IMG/VR virus record: IMGVR_UViG_3300032753_000119
Coordinates: 1 to 31,591 of that record
From: a virus
Reading direction: 5' to 3' (one strand)
DNA: 31,591 nt
Position numbers and translations under genes: made by a program. The notes under the pieces were generated by a model that made no database searches, was not told the origin of the DNA, and was given only the letters and a program-made list of their open reading frames with translations. Shown here piece after piece: positions 4,187-20,770 of this stretch (its first letter is position 1; every line of letters begins with the position of its first letter).

Positions 4187-5392
4187 TTAATAAGTAAGTT
4201 GCGTTGAAACTTGTGATTGTTGAAGGAGTTCAAGTGCCTTCTTTTCTTCATCTGTTAGTGTTGCTTGTTGACCTGCTCCGCCTTTGTTACCGTCGGTCTG
4301 TGTTGTCTTAAGGACTTCAGCTTTACCTTCTGAATATCCTTTGTTTTTGGCAATGGCTACCGCTGCCTTTAAAACATCAGCTCCTGTAATTGCGAATGCT
4401 ACTCTTTCAAATCCTTCTTTAGTAAGTTTTCCATCCTTGCCTACAAATAATGATGCAATGCCTTCTTTGGCAATTACATTCTCAATTCTTTCTAGGTCTT
4501 CTGATTTGAATTGAGGATACTTTGATGTAAACTGATTTTTTGATTCTGCAATTGACGCGGCCCATTCTCTTGCTGTAGCTGCATCTTTTGTTTTTATCGC
4601 TTCTTGTTGATTTTGAAACAAAGCTTTTTCTGCTTCAAATTTTGACTGTGCAACTTTGATGCTTTTTGCAACTGCTTTGTCTTCAATGCTTGCGTTAGAT
4701 TCAATTTTATCTTCAGGGAAAAAGTAGTTATGAATTGAAATTTTTGCCTCGTCCGATAACTTTGCAAAATCTTTTGTAAGGTCAAGGGCTGGTGCTGAAC
4801 CGATTACCGTTCTCCAATCTTTGCCATCTGCAACAGCTCTTATAGCGCTTTGTATTTCTTTTGGCAACGCTTCGAGTGAAGAGGTCAACTCTTGCAATTG
4901 TGTTTTAACGGTTGTAACAGATGCCACTTCTTGCTTGGTTGTTGCAAAGTCACTTATAAACTTTTCAAACCAATCTGGTTGCGCCGTGTCAAATCCTAGC
5001 TTCCCGGCAACATCGTTTAGTTGCTCAGGCTTTGCGCCTTTAAAATCAGGAGTTTTGGTTCCTCCAAAGAAAGGAAGATTTTCAAATTCATTTGCTTGGC
5101 CGCCTTTGTTATCATCCTGTTGCGTATTTGCCCCTCCGCCTTGGCCTCCTGCCGCAGGAGCTTGTTGTTGCTGTTGCTGCTGTTGATTGCCGTCAAAGGC
5201 AGTGTGCATATCCTTGTTAATTTGTATTAATTTTGCAATCTCAGGGTCATTTGCAAGTTGAGGATTATCTGCAAGTAATCCTTCTAGTGCAGACAATTGA
5301 GATGCAATTTCAGGCGTAATGTCCTGTGGAGTAATATCTCCTGGCTTTACCGCTATCTCTTCTGAGATGAAAATTAAATTTAACCGTTTCAT
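4187..5392 (-). CDS. Putative scaffolding protein, 401 aa
   Basis: This gene lies between portal and MCP, the usual place of a scaffolding (assembly-chaperone) gene. The protein is acidic, almost Cys-free and mostly helical. It has a short N-terminal box (MKRLNLIFISEE), a helical region, then a low-complexity linker at about residues 70-100 made of a Gln run followed by Ala/Gly/Gln/Asp, then a long helical and coiled-coil-like region (about 150-350) rich in K, E, A and Q, and a Q/T-rich tail. This build, disordered plus coiled coil with little hydrophobic core, is typical of scaffolds. No protease motif is seen. A minor head protein is the alternative. The Gln run is coded by alternating CAA/CAG, so it is not a simple slippage tract. 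Confidence 0.6.
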   Translation of the reverse strand: MKRLNLIFISEEIAVKPGDITPQDITPEIASQLSALEGLLADNPQLANDPEIAKLIQINKDMHTAFDGNQQQQQQQQAPAAGGQGGGANTQQDDNKGGQANEFENLPFFGGTKTPDFKGAKPEQLNDVAGKLGFDTAQPDWFEKFISDFATTKQEVASVTTVKTQLQELTSSLEALPKEIQSAIRAVADGKDWRTVIGSAPALDLTKDFAKLSDEAKISIHNYFFPEDKIESNASIEDKAVAKSIKVAQSKFEAEKALFQNQQEAIKTKDAATAREWAASIAESKNQFTSKYPQFKSEDLERIENVIAKEGIASLFVGKDGKLTKEGFERVAFAITGADVLKAAVAIAKNKGYSEGKAEVLKTTQTDGNKGGAGQQATLTDEEKKALELLQQSQVSTQLTY

Positions 5393-14814: not shown

Positions 14815-15102
14815 ATGGAGGAAAATATTGAATTTACAGATACCAACGCTAACAATCTCAAATATGGCATTGACTTATGGTTAACGCAGGAGGGCATTGA
14901 CCCTCTCGATTTCTTCATACACGAGGTTTACTCGATGAATGGGAGATATTACTGCAAACTACTAAACGAATCTCACCCACATCGCAAACTATACATTTCA
15001 TGTGTTGGCGACTGGTTGACAACATTTCCTCCATACGCTACTGAAATTATGGATGAAGTAAAAATACCTGATGATGCGGTTAGATTAATTACAATCTTAT
15101 AA
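14815..15102 (+). CDS. Unknown acidic small protein, 95 aa
   Basis: Unrecognised. It is a soluble acidic protein with mixed helix and strand: an N-terminal acidic stretch (MEENIEFTDTNANN), a central aromatic part (IDPLDFFIHEVYSMNGRYYC, about 29-48) and a C-terminal strand (VRLITIL). It has three Tyr/Phe clusters and two Cys, without a metal-binding arrangement. It is 36 bases after the previous stop and immediately before the tRNA-like element at 15110-15152, which would sit in its 3' untranslated region. An early host-interaction or regulatory role would fit such a block but is not shown by the sequence. Confidence 0.65.
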   Translation: MEENIEFTDTNANNLKYGIDLWLTQEGIDPLDFFIHEVYSMNGRYYCKLLNESHPHRKLYISCVGDWLTTFPPYATEIMDEVKIPDDAVRLITIL

Positions 15103-15109
15103 CTCGTTA

Positions 15110-15152
15110 ACTCCACGTATGGAAGGTCGCAGTTCGATTCTGCGGTGGAGTT
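15110..15152 (+). ncRNA. tRNA-like minihelix: acceptor stem plus T-arm, no D or anticodon arm
   Basis: ACTCCAC (15110-15116) pairs perfectly with GTGGAGT (15145-15151); an adjacent A/T pair at 15109/15152 could extend it. Stacked directly on this is a perfect 5-bp T-stem, CGCAG (15128-15132) with CTGCG (15140-15144), and a canonical 7-base T-loop TTCGATT (15133-15139). Only 11 bases (15117-15127) join the 5' acceptor strand to the T-stem, where a tRNA would have D-arm, anticodon arm and variable loop. No CCA is encoded. It lies between two genes of one operon. Known RNase P, RNase Z and CCA-enzyme substrates need little more than this half, so it could be a processing site; a degenerate tRNA is the alternative. 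Confidence 0.6.
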
Positions 15153-15189
15153 CACTGATAATTTTATCAGTTTATTAAATAACAATTTT

Positions 15190-15606
15190 ATGTTTAATTA
15201 CAAACAACTTGCGCTAGCCATTGAGATGCGCACTCGTTATGGCAAACCAAATTTTACTGAAACTACTTACGGTTTCCAATTGGACTCCGGAGATTTGTTT
15301 CCTGAACAACGTGCAGAGTTAATTAAACTTGGCAAATTGTATTATCAGGCGTTAGATAATCCGATTACTGTTGAAATCAAGCAGCAAATGGCTGACATTA
15401 TCGCTGCAAATCCAGGCGTTGATAGTCAGACATTCAAACTTACATTTGAAGATTCGGAAGGCGATTACTCTGATGTGTTCTTCGAGATTTGGTATGATGG
15501 AAATTCCATATATCAATCATGGAGTTTGAAAATCAGAAACGAATACTCGGCACACGAGAAAATGGTTACTGATTTGGTTGTATCACAACTGCAATACTGG
15601 TCATAA
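15190..15606 (+). CDS. Unknown soluble protein, 138 aa
   Basis: Unrecognised. Mixed alpha/beta, no membrane segment, no Cys. It starts MFNYKQLALAIEMRTRYGKP, has a helical middle (EQRAELIKLGKLYYQALD, about 45-62) and a beta-rich aromatic C-terminal part containing FEDSEGDYSDVFFEIWYDGN (about 92-111) and YQSWSLKIRNEY. An in-frame GTG at 15145 would add 15 residues, but it lies inside the acceptor stem of the tRNA-like element, so the ATG at 15190 is preferred. The gene begins 38 bases after that element. The composition resembles small phage early proteins of unknown function. Confidence 0.65.
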   Translation: MFNYKQLALAIEMRTRYGKPNFTETTYGFQLDSGDLFPEQRAELIKLGKLYYQALDNPITVEIKQQMADIIAANPGVDSQTFKLTFEDSEGDYSDVFFEIWYDGNSIYQSWSLKIRNEYSAHEKMVTDLVVSQLQYWS

Positions 15607-15618
15607 CGCAAATCGAAT

Positions 15619-15648
15619 ATGTCAGCACTTAGAAATGCGTGCCGACAT
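15619..15648 (+). terminator. Intergenic hairpin, possible weak terminator
   Basis: ATGTCAGCAC (15619-15628) pairs with GTGCCGACAT (15639-15648) with one mismatch (A/C) and a 10-base loop, followed by TTATTATC. The short T-run is poor for intrinsic termination, so it may instead be an RNA-processing or stability hairpin between two operon genes. Confidence 0.4.
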
Positions 15649-15677
15649 TTATTATCTAACGAATTAAATTATCTATC

Positions 15678-15896
15678 ATGGAATTAAGAGACTTAAACAT
15701 TATTGACGCTATTTGGATGCAGCGCAAGTCTGGTTATGTAAAGAAAAACATACCACAAACCGGAACGAAATTTGGCAAGATTTTATCTATTGGTGCGTAT
15801 AGTATTCACTGTGAAAATGGAACAGTTAATTATACTCAACTTGAAGTTAAAGATGTTACATTTGATGGCTTTAAAATTAAAATTACGAATCTATGA
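15678..15896 (+). CDS. Unknown small beta-rich protein, 72 aa
   Basis: Unrecognised. It reads as one short helix (LNIIDAIWMQRKSGY, about 6-20) followed by alternating strands (FGKILSIGAYSIHCENGTVNY; VTFDGFKIKITNL), a pattern of small beta-barrel or SH3-like domains. Basic in the N-terminal half; one Cys. Its TGA overlaps the ATG of the Cys-rich protein gene (ATGA), so the two are translationally coupled and possibly work together. No function can be assigned. Confidence 0.6.
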   Translation: MELRDLNIIDAIWMQRKSGYVKKNIPQTGTKFGKILSIGAYSIHCENGTVNYTQLEVKDVTFDGFKIKITNL

Positions 15897-16348
15897 AAAT
15901 ATCAGATTTTATACTCATAGTTGAGCAGGCCAAACTAAAGAATGCTTGCAAACCAGCAATTACAGCTGCAAATCAGGCAATTGCTGATAACAACGAATTG
16001 GAAGCGCAACGAATAGTAAATCACTATTCAAAATGGCTATTTTCAAAATCAATAGAACACATAACTGATATGTCAGTTGGAACAAATGTTTACTGTATTA
16101 GATGCGAGAACTGTGAATATTGCTATATGTGTTCAAATTGCAGTGATTGCAGTGATTGCATTGGTTGCAGGTATTGCATTGATTGCATTGGTTGCAGTGA
16201 TTGCATTGGTTGCAGGTATTGCAGTGATTGCATTGATTGCAGGTATTGCAGTGATTGCATTGATTGCAGTGATTGCATTGGTTGCAGCGGTTGCATTGGT
16301 TGCAGCAAACAAGTATTTAAGAATAATTTAACCAATACAAATGACTGA
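15893..16348 (+). CDS. Cys-x-x repeat protein with 24 uninterrupted triplets, 151 aa
   Basis: The N-terminal 60 residues form an ordinary helical domain (KISDFILIVEQAKL, NACKPAITAANQAIADNNEL). From about residue 68 to 139 every third residue is Cys without a single break: 24 consecutive Cys-x-x triplets, mostly CSD, CIG, CID and CRY. The last 12 residues are ordinary. The DNA behind it is a 9-bp-class repeat (TGCATTGAT / TGCAGTGAT words), so it probably grew by slippage, but Cys is kept at every position, which argues for selection. Possible chemistries are metal or Fe-S binding or a disulphide-linked solenoid. Similar Cys-x-x proteins of unknown function are, from memory, scattered in phages. 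It overlaps its upstream neighbour by 4 bases and its downstream neighbour by 8. Confidence 0.8.
   Translation: MKISDFILIVEQAKLKNACKPAITAANQAIADNNELEAQRIVNHYSKWLFSKSIEHITDMSVGTNVYCIRCENCEYCYMCSNCSDCSDCIGCRYCIDCIGCSDCIGCRYCSDCIDCRYCSDCIDCSDCIGCSGCIGCSKQVFKNNLTNTND
16102..16307 (+). repeat. Short tandem coding repeats (TGCAnTGnT words) encoding Cys-x-x
   Basis: A run of near-identical 9- and 15-base words such as TGCATTGATTGCAGTGATTGC. It stays open in several frames, including a hydrophobic plus-strand frame and a minus-strand Met-Gln-Ser-Leu-Gln frame; these are side effects of the repeat, not extra genes. Confidence 0.8.
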
Positions 16349-16694
16349 CACACATCGCATTACAGAGCGCATGGTAGCATCTACCAAAATCTCATTTAAC
16401 GGCATACGTTACTGGATAACTGTCCGTGACACAATGAAAGGAGCTGGATTGTATCACTTTCAATCAACTCATAATGATAAGATACTCAATGCAAAATCAT
16501 TATGCTTTGCTGAACACATTACTAAATATGGATTCAGTAATCAGTTAACACCTGACCATGAACTGGAAGTTGATTATGAGCCAGAAGAAACTGTCGAAGA
16601 ACGTGAACTACGTTTCAATCCTCCACCGACAGAACTGGACATATTGAACGAGGAAATTAAAAGAATTAATTCAGAACGATTAACTAACAAATAA
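16341..16694 (+). CDS. Unknown protein with acidic C-terminal helix, 117 aa
   Basis: Unrecognised. The N-terminal part (about 1-75) is beta-rich (STKISFNGIRYWITVRD; GLYHFQSTHNDKILN) with basic and aromatic residues. The C-terminal part is acidic and helical (HELEVDYEPEETVEERELRF, then LDILNEEIKRINSE), a possible coiled coil. It overlaps the Cys-repeat gene by 8 bases, so coupling is likely. No function recognised. Confidence 0.6.
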   Translation: MTDTHRITERMVASTKISFNGIRYWITVRDTMKGAGLYHFQSTHNDKILNAKSLCFAEHITKYGFSNQLTPDHELEVDYEPEETVEERELRFNPPPTELDILNEEIKRINSERLTNK

Positions 16695-16707
16695 AAACTA
16701 ACTAAGT

Positions 16708-17028
16708 ATGACAAAGATTAAACATCTCGAGATTGCTGTATTCGAGAATAATGAAGAGCAGCCAATTAAAACTCTTGTATTGCATGAGTTTACTAATACT
16801 AAATTAAACTCAAAATGGTATGGTAAAGAATACGATGGAATTTTCGCTGGGCCTTGCGACGAAGCAGCAGAATCAGTTAAAACAGTAAATGATATAATTT
16901 CAGATTATACTGAGCCTGGAAATAAATCATTGTTTACACTTTCTATTAAAGATGATGAAAGTTGGATTACACTTGATTACGACATGGAAAGAATTATTAA
17001 AGAACTAAGCGACCACTCTGGATTATGA
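16708..17028 (+). CDS. Unknown acidic soluble protein, 106 aa
   Basis: Unrecognised. Acidic, mixed alpha/beta: strands MTKIKHLEIAVFENNEEQ and IKTLVLHEF, a Gly/Asp turn (YDGIFAGPCDEAA, about 44-56), then a helical region and strand (SLFTLSIKDDESWITLDYDM). It begins 13 bases after the previous stop and its TGA overlaps the ATG of the frameshifted gene (ATGA). Nothing in the sequence indicates a function. Confidence 0.6.
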   Translation: MTKIKHLEIAVFENNEEQPIKTLVLHEFTNTKLNSKWYGKEYDGIFAGPCDEAAESVKTVNDIISDYTEPGNKSLFTLSIKDDESWITLDYDMERIIKELSDHSGL

Positions 17029-17194
17029 TTAGAAACTATTGCATTACGCACAAGCATCCTAAGTTGTGGCTGGATACCAAATATTCGCTGACTCTTATAT
17101 AGTGCCAATATTCGAGCACGAAGAAGATGAACAAGCTGTAGGATATACGGAGATTAATTACTTTGAAATAAGATTGGACTATTCACTAAACTAA
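17025..17194 (+). pseudogene. Frameshifted small gene, about 56 codons in two frames
   Basis: The ATG at 17025 overlaps the upstream stop (ATGA) and opens MIRNYCITHKHPKL, but the frame ends at TAG 17100-17102. In the -1 frame a protein-like stretch IVPIFEHEEDEQAVGYTEIN continues to TAA at 17192-17194, just before the pentapeptide gene. The join would fall near 17063-17070, around AAGTTGTGG. The acidic continuation is much more gene-like than reading through the stop as sense (that frame meets a second TAG). Single-base indel in the genome, assembly error or programmed frameshift are all possible; no good slippery heptamer is seen. Confidence 0.5.
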
Positions 17195-17204
17195 ACCATA
17201 AAGT

Positions 17205-17888
17205 ATGAAAACTAAAATTGAAATTAAACACTGGATTACTGGCTCAATATTATTTGAATTTGAGAAAGAAGATAATAGCTTACTTAAAACATTAAAAGAG
17301 GCTATTTGTAAAAAATCAGACTTACAGGGCGCAGACTTACAGGGCGCAGACTTACAGGGCGCAGACTTACAGGGCGCAGACTTACAGGGCGCAGACTTAC
17401 AGGGCGCAGACTTACAGGGCGCAGACTTACAGGGCGCAGACTTGCGTGGCGCAGACTTACAGGGCGCAGACTTACAGGGCGCAGACTTACAGGGCGCAGA
17501 CTTACAGGGCGCAGACTTGCGTGGCGCAGACTTACAGGGCGCAGACTTACAGGGCGCAGACTTACAGGGCGCAGACTTACAGGGCGCAGACTTACAGGGC
17601 GCAGACTTACGTGGCGCAAACTTACAGGACGCAAACTTACGTGGCGCAGAAAAAATAAGTAAGGCAGTAGTATTTACAGGTTTGTATAACTATATTGTTA
17701 TTCCGTATGTTACAAAGTATGGAGAAAAAAGAATTAAAATGGGCTGCCATAATCGTTCGCTTGAAGAATGGACTAATGACTTTTGGAACAACAATAATGA
17801 GTTCCCAAATAATGGTTCAGAAAAATCTCAAATGAGATTGATGGCATTTGAAACTGCTAAAAAATGGCTAGAAATTGTATCTAAATAA
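17205..17888 (+). CDS. Pentapeptide-repeat protein, 227 aa
   Basis: The N-terminal 38 residues form a small domain ([20 protein letters not shown]). Then come 22 consecutive pentapeptides, about residues 39-148, of A(D/N)L(Q/R)G type, which fold as a right-handed square beta-helix. The C-terminal domain (about 150-227) contains [34 protein letters not shown] and [13 protein letters not shown]. This N-domain, repeats and C-domain architecture is, from memory, common in phages; the function is unknown, though some pentapeptide proteins mimic DNA and protect gyrase. Within this copy the repeat units are nearly identical in DNA, which suggests recent expansion or gene conversion. Soluble; begins 10 bases after the frameshifted gene. 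Confidence 0.9.
17319..17648 (+). repeat. 22 tandem 15-bp units inside the pentapeptide gene
   Basis: The unit GACTTACAGGGCGCA recurs with almost no change; variants are GACTTGCGTGGCGCA (twice) and a diverged 3' end (GACTTACGTGGCGCA, AACTTACAGGACGCA, AACTTACGTGGCGCA). Perfect identity across most units indicates recent slippage or unequal crossing-over; copy number is probably variable. Confidence 0.9.
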
Positions 17889-17903
17889 TTAAACCAATAT
17901 ACT

Positions 17904-18095
17904 ATGGAAGAGGAAAAGAAACCACCACGTCGCATATCTGAAATGTCTGAATTGGAGCGACAAAAACTTGCAATTAATATTTCGGAGAATCTTAACAAGT
18001 TAAATCCGACAGACCCAGCTTACATATCTCAGTTAAAGGTTCTGAATATGTTGTCTAAGCAAAAACCTAAAACTATTGAATTTGACTTTGATTAA
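17904..18095 (+). CDS. Small protein, paralogue of the 14587-14778 product, 63 aa
   Basis: It shares length and core with the 14587 product (SELERQKLAINISENLNKL against TELRRKQLVMDIANNLAKL; ISQLKVLNMLSKQKP against IDQIRVLNMLSRTRP), so one duplicated gene sits at each end of the small-gene operon. A basic, Pro-containing N-terminus (EEEKKPPRR) precedes two predicted helices. The last residues are IEFDFD; the PD-(D/E)XK nuclease at 23058 ends IKFDFD, a possible shared docking tail. Starts 15 bases after the pentapeptide gene. Function unknown. Confidence 0.7.
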   Translation: MEEEKKPPRRISEMSELERQKLAINISENLNKLNPTDPAYISQLKVLNMLSKQKPKTIEFDFD

Positions 18096-18119
18096 TTAAC
18101 CTAAATTAAATAACTAACT

Positions 18120-18341
18120 ATGAATTTTAAAATAATAATTCCATTTATAATACTGGCATCAACTTCATTGCTTACAGCATGGATAATCGTTAAGCCAAAA
18201 TCAAAAAGAAAGATTGCAAGGGTAAAAATTACATTGCAGCCATCTATAGATTTTATACCTTATATTGGAGCGCAAAATGCTTGTATGATAGAATTCTTTT
18301 TCATTTGCTTCAGGTTTGATATTTATTATCCATTGAAGTAA
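18120..18341 (+). CDS. Small single-pass membrane protein, 73 aa
   Basis: Residues about 3-24 (FKIIIPFIILASTSLLTAWI) form one strong membrane segment, followed by a very basic stretch KPKSKRKIARVK, so the C-terminal side probably stays in the cytoplasm. The remainder is hydrophobic-aromatic (FFFICFRFDIYY) and could make a second, weaker membrane contact. It closes the small-gene operon, directly before the regulatory element at 18348. A holin-like or superinfection-exclusion role is possible for such a protein, but nothing specific is seen. Confidence 0.55.
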   Translation: MNFKIIIPFIILASTSLLTAWIIVKPKSKRKIARVKITLQPSIDFIPYIGAQNACMIEFFFICFRFDIYYPLK

Positions 18342-18347
18342 GTCAAA

Positions 18348-18437
18348 GCATTTATACACGTTTTAACGCATTGTTTTTATTTTGTGGCTATTTGCCCGAA
18401 ACATACAACAAACCAACGTTAAAACGCGTATAAATGC
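18348..18437 (+). promoter_or_regulatory. Upstream inverted-repeat element, copy 2 (serves 18482 plus)
   Basis: The left arm 18348-18368 (GCATTTATAC, then ACGTTTTAACG) and right arm 18417-18437 (CGTTAAAACG, then CGTATAAATGC) are reverse complements over 21 bases with one mismatch, 48 bases apart. TTTAAACG follows at 18440-18447. It is the most symmetrical of three related elements and lies 45 bases before the NYN gene. No sense-strand host-type promoter is visible between it and the ATG. Confidence 0.75.
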
Positions 18438-18481
18438 CTTTAAACGCAGAATTTTAAACCTTTCAAACATAAACGAATAAA

Positions 18482-19024
18482 ATGGAACAGATAACACATG
18501 GACAATCAGTTGCCATACTTATAGATGGCAATAACATTGAGCGTTCAATTGCCAGTGCATACGGAAAAGATAAGATGCTCAACTATGACACATTCATACC
18601 TTATATCTTAAAGAATCGCCCTCTTATATACATGGACTACTTTATTGAAGGAATTGAAGATGGAACAAAGAAATCATTTTCAGAGCGACTTGACAAAAAG
18701 TTCTTCGGAAATATTCACAGATGTCATAAGTCTGCAGATGTTCCACTATCAATGCACGCGGCAAAGATTATGAACAAAGTTAACACTATTATTATTATGT
18801 CTGGAGATGCAGACTACTGCGATACTGTTGACTTTTTAATGAACAATGGAGTTAGAATTGAAGTATGCTGCGTATATGGAACAGGAAGTAAAGCACTCTT
18901 ATCAAGAGTTAACAACTGGACGTATATACAAGATAGGGATTGCTATGCATTAGATAAAACAATGCCAGTTACAAAAGAAGAGTTCAATTCAAACATGGAG
19001 AAATTGGAATCAGATAATGTATAG
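18482..19024 (+). CDS. NYN-domain (LabA/DUF88-like) PIN-fold nuclease, 180 aa
   Basis: This is a NYN-domain protein, a PIN-like fold that in characterised members cuts or processes RNA with metal bound by conserved Asp residues. Motifs: strand plus AILIDGNNIE (about 11-20, catalytic Asp 15 and Asn 17), KSADVPLSMHAAKI (about 83-96, the second acidic site at Asp 86), and IIIMSGDADYCDTVDFLMNN (about 103-122, third site SGDAD), followed by VRIEVCCVYG. All key acidic residues are present, so it is probably active, acting on cytoplasmic RNA. Whether the target is phage RNA, host RNA or tRNA is not known. It stands alone behind the conserved upstream element and 100 bases before another promoter-driven gene. 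Confidence 0.85.
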   Translation: MEQITHGQSVAILIDGNNIERSIASAYGKDKMLNYDTFIPYILKNRPLIYMDYFIEGIEDGTKKSFSERLDKKFFGNIHRCHKSADVPLSMHAAKIMNKVNTIIIMSGDADYCDTVDFLMNNGVRIEVCCVYGTGSKALLSRVNNWTYIQDRDCYALDKTMPVTKEEFNSNMEKLESDNV

Positions 19025-19052
19025 ACAAAATACAGACGAAAATTATCTTCGC

Positions 19053-19083
19053 TTGGTATATCAATAAACGTTATTTATATTTG
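19053..19083 (+). promoter_or_regulatory. Host-type promoter before the 19129 gene
   Basis: TTG at 19053-19055, 20 bases, then TATATTTG at 19076-19083, matching the Bacteroidetes consensus. The phage word CGTTATTT (19069-19076) overlaps the -7 element. It predicts a leader of about 40 bases before the ATG at 19129. Confidence 0.7.
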
Positions 19084-19128
19084 ACATTCAAAACGGGGCA
19101 AATTTTAACATTCACTTAAACAACAGTT

Positions 19129-19461
19129 ATGGCAACTAAACAACAACCAAAGCAGCGCAAACCGCGTAAAGCTGCACCAAAACCTGATGCCGCAAGGCCA
19201 AAGTATGGTTTTATTACTTTATTCTTTATTGACATTCGCGCCCAGAGAATTGTTCAGGGACAAGTTGAAAGTATCAATACAATTCACAAGCCAATCCGCA
19301 ACGCGGAAAAGAAATTTGAAGGCGTAGAAATGAATCACTACTACAACCTTCGCACCGAAGTTTACGAACACAACTCTTCAATCCATGAAGATAACTTGTA
19401 TACTTCACACGAAGCTGCAGCTAAGGTGTTCGGCAAAAACCACACAGATTATTTGAAGTAA
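19129..19461 (+). CDS. Unknown protein with a basic N-terminal tail, 110 aa
   Basis: Unrecognised. The first 25 residues are a Lys/Arg/Gln/Pro/Ala-rich tail (TKQQPKQRKPRKAAPKPDAA) suited to binding nucleic acid. The remaining 85 residues form a small domain (YGFITLFFIDIRAQRIVQGQ, about 26-45, then HYYNLRTEVYEHNSS) with alternating strands and aromatic residues, perhaps beta-barrel-like, and a helix near the end (SHEAAAKVFGKN). First gene of the operon carrying two of the tRNA-like elements. A nucleic-acid-binding role is a guess from the tail. Confidence 0.65.
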   Translation: MATKQQPKQRKPRKAAPKPDAARPKYGFITLFFIDIRAQRIVQGQVESINTIHKPIRNAEKKFEGVEMNHYYNLRTEVYEHNSSIHEDNLYTSHEAAAKVFGKNHTDYLK

Positions 19462-19498
19462 TTGAGCTGCGAAAGAAAGGCGCAGTAATCCAGTGGTA

Positions 19499-19539
19499 AG
19501 CGTTTAGTCGGTAAATTCTGGTTCGAGTCCAGAAACGCT
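19499..19539 (+). ncRNA. tRNA-like minihelix 2: acceptor stem plus T-arm
   Basis: AGCGTT (19499-19504) pairs with AACGCT (19534-19539). The stacked T-stem TCTGG (19517-19521) pairs with CCAGA (19529-19533) around the canonical loop TTCGAGT (19522-19528). The 12 bases joining acceptor to T-stem (19505-19516) read TAGTCGGTAAAT, which resembles a D-loop sequence (AGTCGGTA) but cannot form D or anticodon stems. No complementary 5' acceptor strand for a full-length tRNA was found upstream. ACA, not CCA, follows. It lies between the genes at 19129 and 19554. Same architecture as 15110-15152 but with different stems, so pairing, not sequence, is kept. Confidence 0.6.
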
Positions 19540-19553
19540 ACAAAATCAAAGTT

Positions 19554-20078
19554 ATGACAGTATTAGAAAGATATAAACTTTATGTTGAAGATTTGGCAAC
19601 TGCGATGGCGCATACAATATCTCCATCATTATTTTGTGAAATAAGTGAAGACGAACAGTTACTAAAATTGAATATTTGTTCATTTCAAAAAGAAGAGCCA
19701 CTATTTATATATGACTGCAGAAACAATGAAAGGACAAATGACTCATCTGAAATACCAGATGATTGGAAAAATTATACAGTAGAATCATCAATACAGGATG
19801 CAGTATTTACTTGTTCTTTAAGTTCTCCAGAATATATAAAGTTTCAAACTGCAATTAAAATTCATTTTTTAAAGTTATGTCAAACCCATGCGGCTGCACA
19901 TATTCTTGAAACAACAGAATATGAGTTGGTTGATATTCTAAATGAAAGTGATGAAGTATTTTACCTTGAAGAACTTGAATCTGGAAAAATAGTTGTTGGA
20001 ACCAATAGACTTCATTATATGCTTGAATATCTAAATTGTTACTTTTCAATACAACGTAAAGATGCAGACTTTAACTAA
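19554..20078 (+). CDS. Unknown acidic protein, 174 aa
   Basis: Unrecognised. Acidic, mixed alpha/beta, cytoplasmic. The N-terminal helix (TVLERYKLYVEDLATAMAH) and central strands (LKLNICSFQKEEPLFIYDC) are followed by a helical part (AIKIHFLKLCQTHAAAHIL, about 102-120) and acidic C-terminal strands (DEVFYLEELESGKIVVG). It has five Cys without metal-site spacing. It starts 14 bases after the second tRNA-like element and overlaps the next gene by 17 bases. Function not recognisable. Confidence 0.65.
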   Translation: MTVLERYKLYVEDLATAMAHTISPSLFCEISEDEQLLKLNICSFQKEEPLFIYDCRNNERTNDSSEIPDDWKNYTVESSIQDAVFTCSLSSPEYIKFQTAIKIHFLKLCQTHAAAHILETTEYELVDILNESDEVFYLEELESGKIVVGTNRLHYMLEYLNCYFSIQRKDADFN

Positions 20079-20397
20079 AAACATCCAGCTATCCGAAAAG
20101 ATAGAATTTCTTAATCAATTTGGACAGTTTTATACTGTTAATGGGTATAATTCTTACATTCCACATGATAAGTATAGAAATCTATTCGGAAGCAATGCCT
20201 TTGCGTCAAGCGAGCGAATGCTTTACCTTGTAAATCAAATAATAAAAGTAAATGGACTTTATCAATATCTACAGCAATTCGTATTAACTCCGATAAAATT
20301 TAAAGAAACTCTTTATTTACTAACCAATAAAAATCCAGAAAATGGAAAAGAAAACAATCCAAGAAGTGCTGGCGCAAATGTCAGTAAGAATTATTAA
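20062..20397 (+). CDS. Unknown small protein overlapping both neighbours, 111 aa
   Basis: Unrecognised. A helical, aromatic-rich N-terminal two thirds (IEFLNQFGQFYTVNGYNSYI; RMLYLVNQIIKVNGLYQYLQ) ends in a polar tail NPENGKENNPRSAGANVSKN, whose last 18 codons are overprinted by the next gene in another frame. It overlaps the upstream gene by 17 bases and the downstream gene by 56. The polar tail probably arose under the constraint of the overlap. No function assigned. Confidence 0.6.
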   Translation: MQTLTKNIQLSEKIEFLNQFGQFYTVNGYNSYIPHDKYRNLFGSNAFASSERMLYLVNQIIKVNGLYQYLQQFVLTPIKFKETLYLLTNKNPENGKENNPRSAGANVSKNY

Positions 20398-20647
20398 TGA
20401 GGAAACAACTCCTGAACTCTACGAAGACGTTATGTTTGCAGAAAAGTTTGAAGAAGATGCAAACAAGCACATCTTTGAATTTTCGGCACAGCAAGGCGAA
20501 GTCGAAGAGTGGGCTGATGATTTTTCCGGCAAGTGCTATTACTGCGAAAATCTTCAGGAAGCCGTTGATGCTTTAAACGAAGCAATCAATAACGGAGATA
20601 TTGTTACAGATGAAGCAATTGATGGCGACAAAGACCTGGAAGGGTAG
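20342..20647 (+). CDS. Unknown very acidic protein, 101 aa
   Basis: Unrecognised. Strongly acidic throughout (many Glu and Asp; for example QGEVEEWADDF and DEAIDGDKDLEG at the C-terminus), with two helices and one Cys-x-x-Cys-like pair (KCYYCEN, about 63-69). Small acidic phage proteins of this kind often mimic DNA or bind host enzymes, but nothing specific shows it here. It overlaps the preceding gene by 56 bases and is followed after 17 bases by the tRNA-like gene at 20665, in whose transcript it probably lies. Confidence 0.6.
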   Translation: MEKKTIQEVLAQMSVRIINEETTPELYEDVMFAEKFEEDANKHIFEFSAQQGEVEEWADDFSGKCYYCENLQEAVDALNEAINNGDIVTDEAIDGDKDLEG

Positions 20648-20664: not shown

Positions 20665-20735
20665 TGTGTTATAGTATAATTGGTAGTATCGAAGCGCAGA
20701 GGCTTCGGGTCTGGGTTCGAAACCCAGTGGCACAA
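20665..20735 (+). tRNA. Full-length tRNA-like gene with non-canonical anticodon loop
   Basis: Acceptor TGTGTTA (20665-20671) pairs with TGGCACA (20728-20734), two pairs being G-U. Bases 20672-20673 TA correspond to T8/A9. D-arm: GTAT / AATTGGTA / GTAT (20674-20689). T-arm: CTGGG / TTCGAAA / CCCAG (20711-20727). The middle arm is CGAAGC / GCAGAG / GCTTCG (20690-20707), giving a 6-base loop (or 8 with one pair opened), with no T at position 33 and no clear anticodon. It should be recognised and processed as a tRNA but cannot decode normally. No CCA is encoded. It ends 36 bases before the DNA-ligase promoter. Confidence 0.6.
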
Positions 20736-20770
20736 CAAAGTCTATTTGATAGAAAATTATAATCTTTACT

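Follow-up and report, generated by a model that had tools for sequence, protein, structure and literature searches.

tRNA-like elements at the locus

The window analysed here is the whole 31,591-nucleotide stretch of IMG/VR virus record IMGVR_UViG_3300032753_000119. The virus is a tailed phage by the gene content of its genome (portal, tail fibre, DnaB-like helicase/primase, SNF2 helicase, ATP-dependent DNA ligase and phage lysozyme). Two gene gaps of the window each hold a minihelix, that is, an acceptor stem stacked on a T-arm and joined to it by a short linker where a tRNA has its D and anticodon arms; we call these E1 and E2. A first-pass annotation had described the two stacks, each interrupted by a linker of 11-12 nucleotides (nt), and both are present by sequence and by folding, the E2 acceptor having 6 base pairs (bp). 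Its count of two such elements in the window holds for E1 and E2 and is otherwise incomplete, as it overlooked a full-length tRNA-like element, E3.

15109..15154, + strand: minihelix E1 (sequence, fold, covariance model 39 bits, scanner score 34)
15110-15116, + strand: E1 acceptor 5' strand ACTCCAC, pairing with GTGGAGT at 15145-15151
15117-15127, + strand: E1 linker GTATGGAAGGT, 11 nt, with a GG and, at its end, the tRNA-like variable loop AGGT
15128-15144, + strand: E1 T-arm CGCAG-TTCGATT-CTGCG (sequence, fold)
15154..15171, + strand: AT-rich hairpin ACTGATA-ATTT-TATCAGT, directly 3' of E1 N73-C74 (fold)
19499..19542, + strand: minihelix E2 (sequence, fold, covariance model 21.8 bits, scanner score 28)
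19499-19504 and 19534-19539, + strand: E2 acceptor AGCGTT / AACGCT, 6 bp
19505-19516, + strand: E2 linker TAGTCGGTAAAT, 12 nt (sequence)
19517-19533, + strand: E2 T-arm TCTGG-TTCGAGT-CCAGA; N73 is the A at 19540, with CA next
20665..20737, + strand: E3, full-length and tRNA-like, called tRNA-??? by ARAGORN, acceptor/T stack intact

In E1 the T at 15152 (N73) is able to pair with A15109 at position -1, and CA follows it. The E1 fold has an energy of -16.4 kcal/mol (z -2.0), and the hairpin behind it (24 nt folded) was matched in stability by none of 300 shuffles; it is a possible candidate for a 5'-end hairpin of the downstream mRNA. The E2 stack comes to 11 bp in all, not 12, and its energy is unremarkable (a z of -1.7 as a 44-mer and of -0.4 when the flank is included). 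In the window ARAGORN reports a tRNA at neither E1 nor E2, and an Rfam scan of the window matched nothing relevant. The segment CAGTGGTA upstream of E2 was considered as a D-loop, which it resembles, and was rejected since it forms no stem with the remainder.

The open reading frames (ORFs) that flank the three elements are as follows.

14815..15102, + strand: ORF upstream of E1, 95 residues, no family
15190..15606, + strand: ORF downstream of E1, 138 residues, no family
19129..19461, + strand: ORF upstream of E2, 110 residues, no family
19554..20078, + strand: ORF downstream of E2, 174 residues, no family, its ATG 11 nt past the CA of E2
20342..20647, + strand: ORF upstream of E3, 101 residues
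20805..22046, + strand: ATP-dependent DNA ligase gene downstream of E3 (Pfam and PHROG matches)

Five elements in one phage genome

The window DNA is 99.98-100% the same, in permuted order, in IMGVR_UViG_3300031813_000015 (66,393 bases), a separate assembly of the window virus whose remainder outside the window was read as L004 and L005. This whole 66-kb genome was scanned on both strands for T-arms with a TTCRANN loop, five pairs and a G-C or C-G pair beside the loop. Exactly five sites were found, all five with a matching acceptor strand, and every one lies on the coding strand within a gene gap. Besides E1, E2 and E3 they are:

L005 13672-13753, minus strand: E4, full-length; its acceptor/T stack is perfect, and an acceptable anticodon arm is lacking
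L004 4382-4427, coding strand: E5, the third minihelix, TA-A-GCCA GTTTGGAATCT GAGAGGGG-TTCGATT-CCCTTCTC TGGC-T-CA-ATG

E5 occupies the entire gap from the TAA stop codon to the next ATG, and 8 of its 11 linker bases are those of E1, the stems of the two being unrelated. All five elements have an acceptor/T stack 11-13 bp long and a TTCRA loop, and none has a usable anticodon arm: the arm is absent in E1, E2 and E5, has a 6-nt loop (GCAGAG, without U33) in E3 and takes no acceptable form in E4. The D stem is missing in E1, E2 and E5, where neither a D-arm nor a second acceptor strand lies upstream. In E3, which scores below the Rfam tRNA cut-off, the T-loop is of the TTCRA type with A as its last base, and N73 is an A followed by CA. 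The same scan found no orphan T-arm in the 66-kb genome, which also contains no normal tRNA and no Rfam tRNA match above the cut-off.

Chance and controls

We took as a minihelix any site with a linker of 8-16 nt, a TTCRA loop, an unbroken stack of 11-13 bp with one interruption on the 5' side and a score of at least 28. By these full criteria the 66-kb genome has three (E1, E2 and E5), whereas 120 dinucleotide-preserving shuffles average 0.017 and never exceed 1. Chance hairpins are therefore a hardly credible explanation, and the canonical T-loops and the constant features of linker and 3' flank given below argue against them as well. What speaks for chance is that E2 has weak energy z-scores and that loose criteria (at least 6 of 7 acceptor pairs, any TTCR loop) expect about 1.1 hairpins per window, because of which E2 alone would not stand out. 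As a further control, other loci, viral and cellular and totalling 4.45 Mb, gave 8 hits together for eight permuted-loop patterns and 7 for the real loop, and the non-tRNA hits among those 7 include minihelices of other phages.

Real tRNAs can imitate a minihelix, since in some of them the anticodon loop and the acceptor 3' strand pair at a spacing of 11. When 297 distinct real tRNAs were passed through the scanner, 3 reached a score of 28 and none reached 30; E1 scores 34 and E5 32.7, and E2 (28) and the element L042b described below (29) lie inside the range that real tRNAs occasionally attain. This imitation could favour reading the elements as phage attachment sites (attP) that carry a host tRNA gene's 3' half, such halves being frequent attachment sites. 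We consider that very improbable: the scores of E1 and E5 exceed those of all the real tRNAs, five different elements lie within one genome, no integrase is among the scanned proteins, and the 3' halves of E1 and E5 match no site at three or fewer mismatches in 395 Bacteroidota genomes (the host lineage being assumed), on which ground the reading was rejected for these two.

A generic minihelix covariance model, R1, is strong on E1; it misses longer linkers such as that of L142 (below), and its best matches in the 395 Bacteroidota genomes are real tRNAs of the imitating type, with pairing between anticodon loop and acceptor. For these reasons we preferred the floating-junction scanner with its permuted-loop controls. 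Related helicase genes were also followed into cellular genomes and metagenome-assembled genomes, and none of the 80 loci surrounding them showed a clear minihelix.

Minihelices in other phages

Minihelices of the same kind were found in the following phages.

3300024257_000065 (L042), 1369-1410: L042b, ACCAG ACTGGCAGTCA CTCAGG-TTCAAGA-CCTGAG CTGGT-G-CA
L042, 388-434: a second, less canonical element
3300036969_000266 (L142), 4970-5019: A-AGCCTGA ACAGGTAACAAACAT CGTGG-TTCGATT-CCACG TCAGGCT-T-CA-ATG
Jumbo phage G084 (L183), 18243-18291, - strand: minihelix in or beside a tRNA cluster
Jumbo phage G074 (L241), 17798-17844, - strand: minihelix in or beside a tRNA cluster, adjoining a tRNA that ARAGORN cannot type

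L042b starts two bases past a stop codon and precedes the next ATG, and the L142 minihelix lies in a gap after a stop codon, with a normal tRNA-Glu nearby. Neither L042 nor L142 is closely related to the window phage. L075, which by its helicase is closest to L042, carries a tRNA-like element that ends in CCA and lacks a normal anticodon arm; no relatives of the L142 lineage were found. Searches of viral contigs with the portal, the ligase and two small proteins as queries recovered no virus other than the window virus itself, and phage records searched by portal protein or by DNA gave no relative of it. In the literature searched, no paper describing such phage minihelices came up, which does not prove that none exists.

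The T-loop, the continuous stack of 11-13 bp and a GG in the linker are common to these minihelices, and the stem sequences are unrelated. One architecture on unrelated stems, as previously claimed for E1 and E2, is thus seen in both of these and also in E5 and in the other phages. The GG is present in all six clear cases (E1, E2, E5, L042b, L142 and L183). Where the linker interrupts the stack differs from case to case (8|5 in E1, 5|8 in E5, 6|5 in E2 and 5|6 in L042b), and the helix stays continuous throughout.

CA directly follows N73 in 9/9 sequences checked, the real L142 tRNA-Glu included, and all minihelix cases bar the two of the jumbo phages have the flank N73-C74-A75. In the tRNA genes of two Bacteroidota genomes (L351-L380) the encoded CCA is nearly always missing and C74 is fixed, being present in all 32 distinct 3' flanks, 15 of which have CA. 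The ends of the elements therefore resemble those of host-type tRNA genes, a Bacteroidota host being assumed. In E1 a hairpin starts immediately past C74, and hairpins follow at a short distance both the minihelix and the tRNA-Glu of L142; that of E4 is weak.

Relics or retained structures

The elements might be relics of former normal tRNA genes, which lost their D and anticodon arms by internal deletion and whose remainder has not yet decayed, or is kept because its loss brings nothing. A tRNA origin is indeed likely for E1, because its variable loop and T-arm (AGGTCGCAGTTCGATTCTGCG) are identical over 21/21 bases to a Vibrio phage tRNA-Cys. E3 and E4 are still tRNA-like with damaged anticodon regions, the minihelices within the tRNA clusters of G084 and G074 suggest that such remnants may exist, and N-C-A is the ordinary flank of Bacteroidota tRNA genes. 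We nevertheless judge the relic explanation rather unlikely for the set as a whole. Decay should strike the acceptor/T part no less often than other parts, leaving broken stems and T-arms without a partner, neither of which is seen; the whole stack is kept in five of five elements in which a usable anticodon arm is missing; and no intact tRNA remains in the genome. Moreover, the 11-bp stacks of E2 and L042b (in the C74 register) require matched losses on both strands, and the shifted junction with a continuous helix in E5 and L042b is unlike a plain deletion. The first-pass view that random decay is unlikely is thus borne out for scattered mutation, which the same five-of-five pattern, the lack of orphans and the recurrence of the plan all disfavour; it does not extend to relics of clean deletion, given the E1 variable loop and the jumbo-phage clusters.

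A proposed role in mRNA processing

We tentatively favour, with somewhat less than even confidence, the reading that these structured, rare and intergenic elements are substrates of the host tRNA end-processing enzymes RNase P and RNase Z, and would thereby punctuate the polycistronic phage mRNA. Placement between stop and start codons and a tRNA-like 3' flank fit the cleavage punctuation that had been suggested beside decoys and small RNAs; the choice among these three is one that we infer. In the proposed sequence of events, the transcript first folds the element into a continuous 11-13 bp stack under the T-loop, as sequence and folding show, and the linker GG may then dock on the T-loop in the manner of G18-G19 of the tRNA elbow. 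RNase P would cut 5' of the stack, just past the upstream stop codon, and RNase Z would cut after N73, so that the downstream mRNA would begin with CA and sometimes carry a 5'-terminal hairpin. The cuts, their order and any benefit to the phage are what we infer here. The anticodon would not be kept because it is not needed for processing.

Known biochemistry is consistent with such steps. The RNase P RNA of E. coli cuts model hairpins of acceptor stem, T-stem and T-loop at the normal position, and action of RNase P on polycistronic mRNA and on phage C4 RNA is documented (PMC11143913). Both enzymes hold the tRNA by its elbow: RNase P gauges the length of the acceptor/T stack, and RNase Z, clamped on the elbow, cleaves pre-tRNA that lacks CCA after N73 (PMC4919913, PMC4810234). 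It is also possible, and we hold this less firmly, that in some phages anticodon-less minihelices with an elbow-forming linker are dedicated operon cleavage marks, used as mitochondria use tRNAs, decoding having been dispensed with. If these proposals are true, the minimal RNase P/RNase Z substrate known from in vitro work is used in nature, phages gain mRNA processing without a nuclease of their own, and tRNA annotation programs overlook a class of phage element, as ARAGORN does with E1 and E2. A testable question is then opened, namely which part of a tRNA persists once decoding is dispensable.

Several observations weigh against punctuation. Most gene gaps of the genome have no such element, and the downstream hairpin is not general, being absent at E2, at E5 and at the two elements of L042. 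Inheritance from tRNA ancestors could by itself account for C74 and A75. The end of the E1 linker looks like a normal tRNA variable loop, as would be expected of a deletion relic, and decay is the simpler reading for the jumbo-phage minihelices in tRNA clusters. Finally, protein and pattern scans of viral contigs gave no relative in which the same gene gaps could be compared.

Alternatively, the elements could act in trans, being excised and accumulating as stable minihelix RNAs that serve as decoys or titrants of RNase P, RNase Z, the CCA-adding enzyme, or tRNA-modifying or tRNA-targeting defence proteins. What they offer is exactly the acceptor/T domain to which such enzymes bind (PMC4919913, PMC4810234), several differing copies per genome would increase the dose, and an RNA without an anticodon could not be inactivated by an anticodon nuclease. 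We regard this as improbable, because a decoy needs no exact stop-to-start placement, nothing in the genome names a target, and the elements lie inside operons, with no established sign of promoters or terminators of their own. (The Bacteroidota -7 promoter motif, TANNTTTG, is barely above chance in the window and is uninformative on the elements.)

Other repeats of the window

The window also contains several repeats. A pentapeptide-repeat gene (17205-17888) has 15-base tandem repeats at 17317-17650, within which the other assembly of the virus breaks, so their copy number may be unreliable. Short tandem repeats at 16134-16310 encode a Cys-rich repeat protein (15893-16348). The ORF at 1079-1867 contains a long near-perfect inverted repeat at 1629-1713 (GATAGTGACGAAGTTGTAAA / TTTACAACTTCGTCACTATC), for which Rfam gave microRNA models only, below their cut-offs. 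Another long inverted repeat, GCATTTATACACGTTTTAACGC ... AACGTTAAAACGCGTATAAATGC, lies at 18346-18439, upstream of an NYN-domain gene (18482-19024).

Comparison with known systems

The AT1-type model substrates of RNase P (McClain and Altman) likewise consist of stacked acceptor and T helices with a T-loop and neither D nor anticodon arm (PMC11143913); they are synthetic, whereas the phage elements are genome-encoded and keep a linker of 11-16 nt with a GG. In mitochondrial tRNA punctuation, as outlined in PMC11144196, tRNA structures likewise stand between coding genes and mRNAs are freed by cleavage at their ends. There the punctuating tRNAs decode, whereas the phage elements cannot decode and sit in a bacteriophage. 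Partial tRNA genes with a T-arm are also made by integration (PMC9897764). Such fragments match the end of a host tRNA; E1 and E5, in contrast, match none in the Bacteroidota genomes searched and have a paired 5' acceptor strand. The RNase P sites of bacterial mRNA and C4 RNA are irregular structures that are not known to have a canonical T-loop or a tRNA 3' flank. They resemble the phage elements in that non-tRNA transcripts, namely bacterial polycistronic mRNA and the C4 antisense RNA of phages P1/P7, are cut (PMC11143913). ARAGORN found no transfer-messenger RNA (tmRNA) in the window, and there was no Rfam match to one. The tRNA-like domain of tmRNA has, as the elements do, an acceptor and T-arm with a stemless D-loop-like segment; unlike them, tmRNA has an mRNA-like body and alanine identity.

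The Schitoviridae (N4-like phages) share a tRNA-Cys(GCA)-like element that lacks the D-arm, of the form TTCCGG(T/C)G-TAGGTACTA-anticodon arm-...-GGAACCA.

L342 (phage N4), ~370-435: N4-like element, unannotated in N4; also in L343, L344-L350, L346 and L010

Other annotations give it as tRNA-OTHER or tRNA-Undet or omit it. Its anticodon stem differs by genus (GTGTC/GGCAT, CGTT/AACG, ACCCT/AGGGT) with pairing largely kept. Like E1, E2 and E5 it is phage-encoded and short, with a canonical T-arm and acceptor and no D stem; unlike them, it has an anticodon arm, whose loop is GTGCAC(A), together with an encoded CCA, and it is located among tRNAs.

Just upstream of the N4-like element is a 60-base block, AGTCCAGAC..ATATCTG..CAGATGGAGCCAGGTGGAATCCCTGGCAA (L010 ~501-559; L342-L350), which the Schitoviridae conserve and which BLAST finds in Klebsiella and Salmonella phages of ~40-60 kb as well, for example 9NA; it is an unnamed structured element with no Rfam match. 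In Vibrio phage 1.081.O (L011) the tRNA-Cys is annotated on the strand opposite to that of the ARAGORN/T-arm call, as other tRNAs of it probably are.

The N4-like case shows that tRNA-like genes which lack arms can be kept by phages for a long time.

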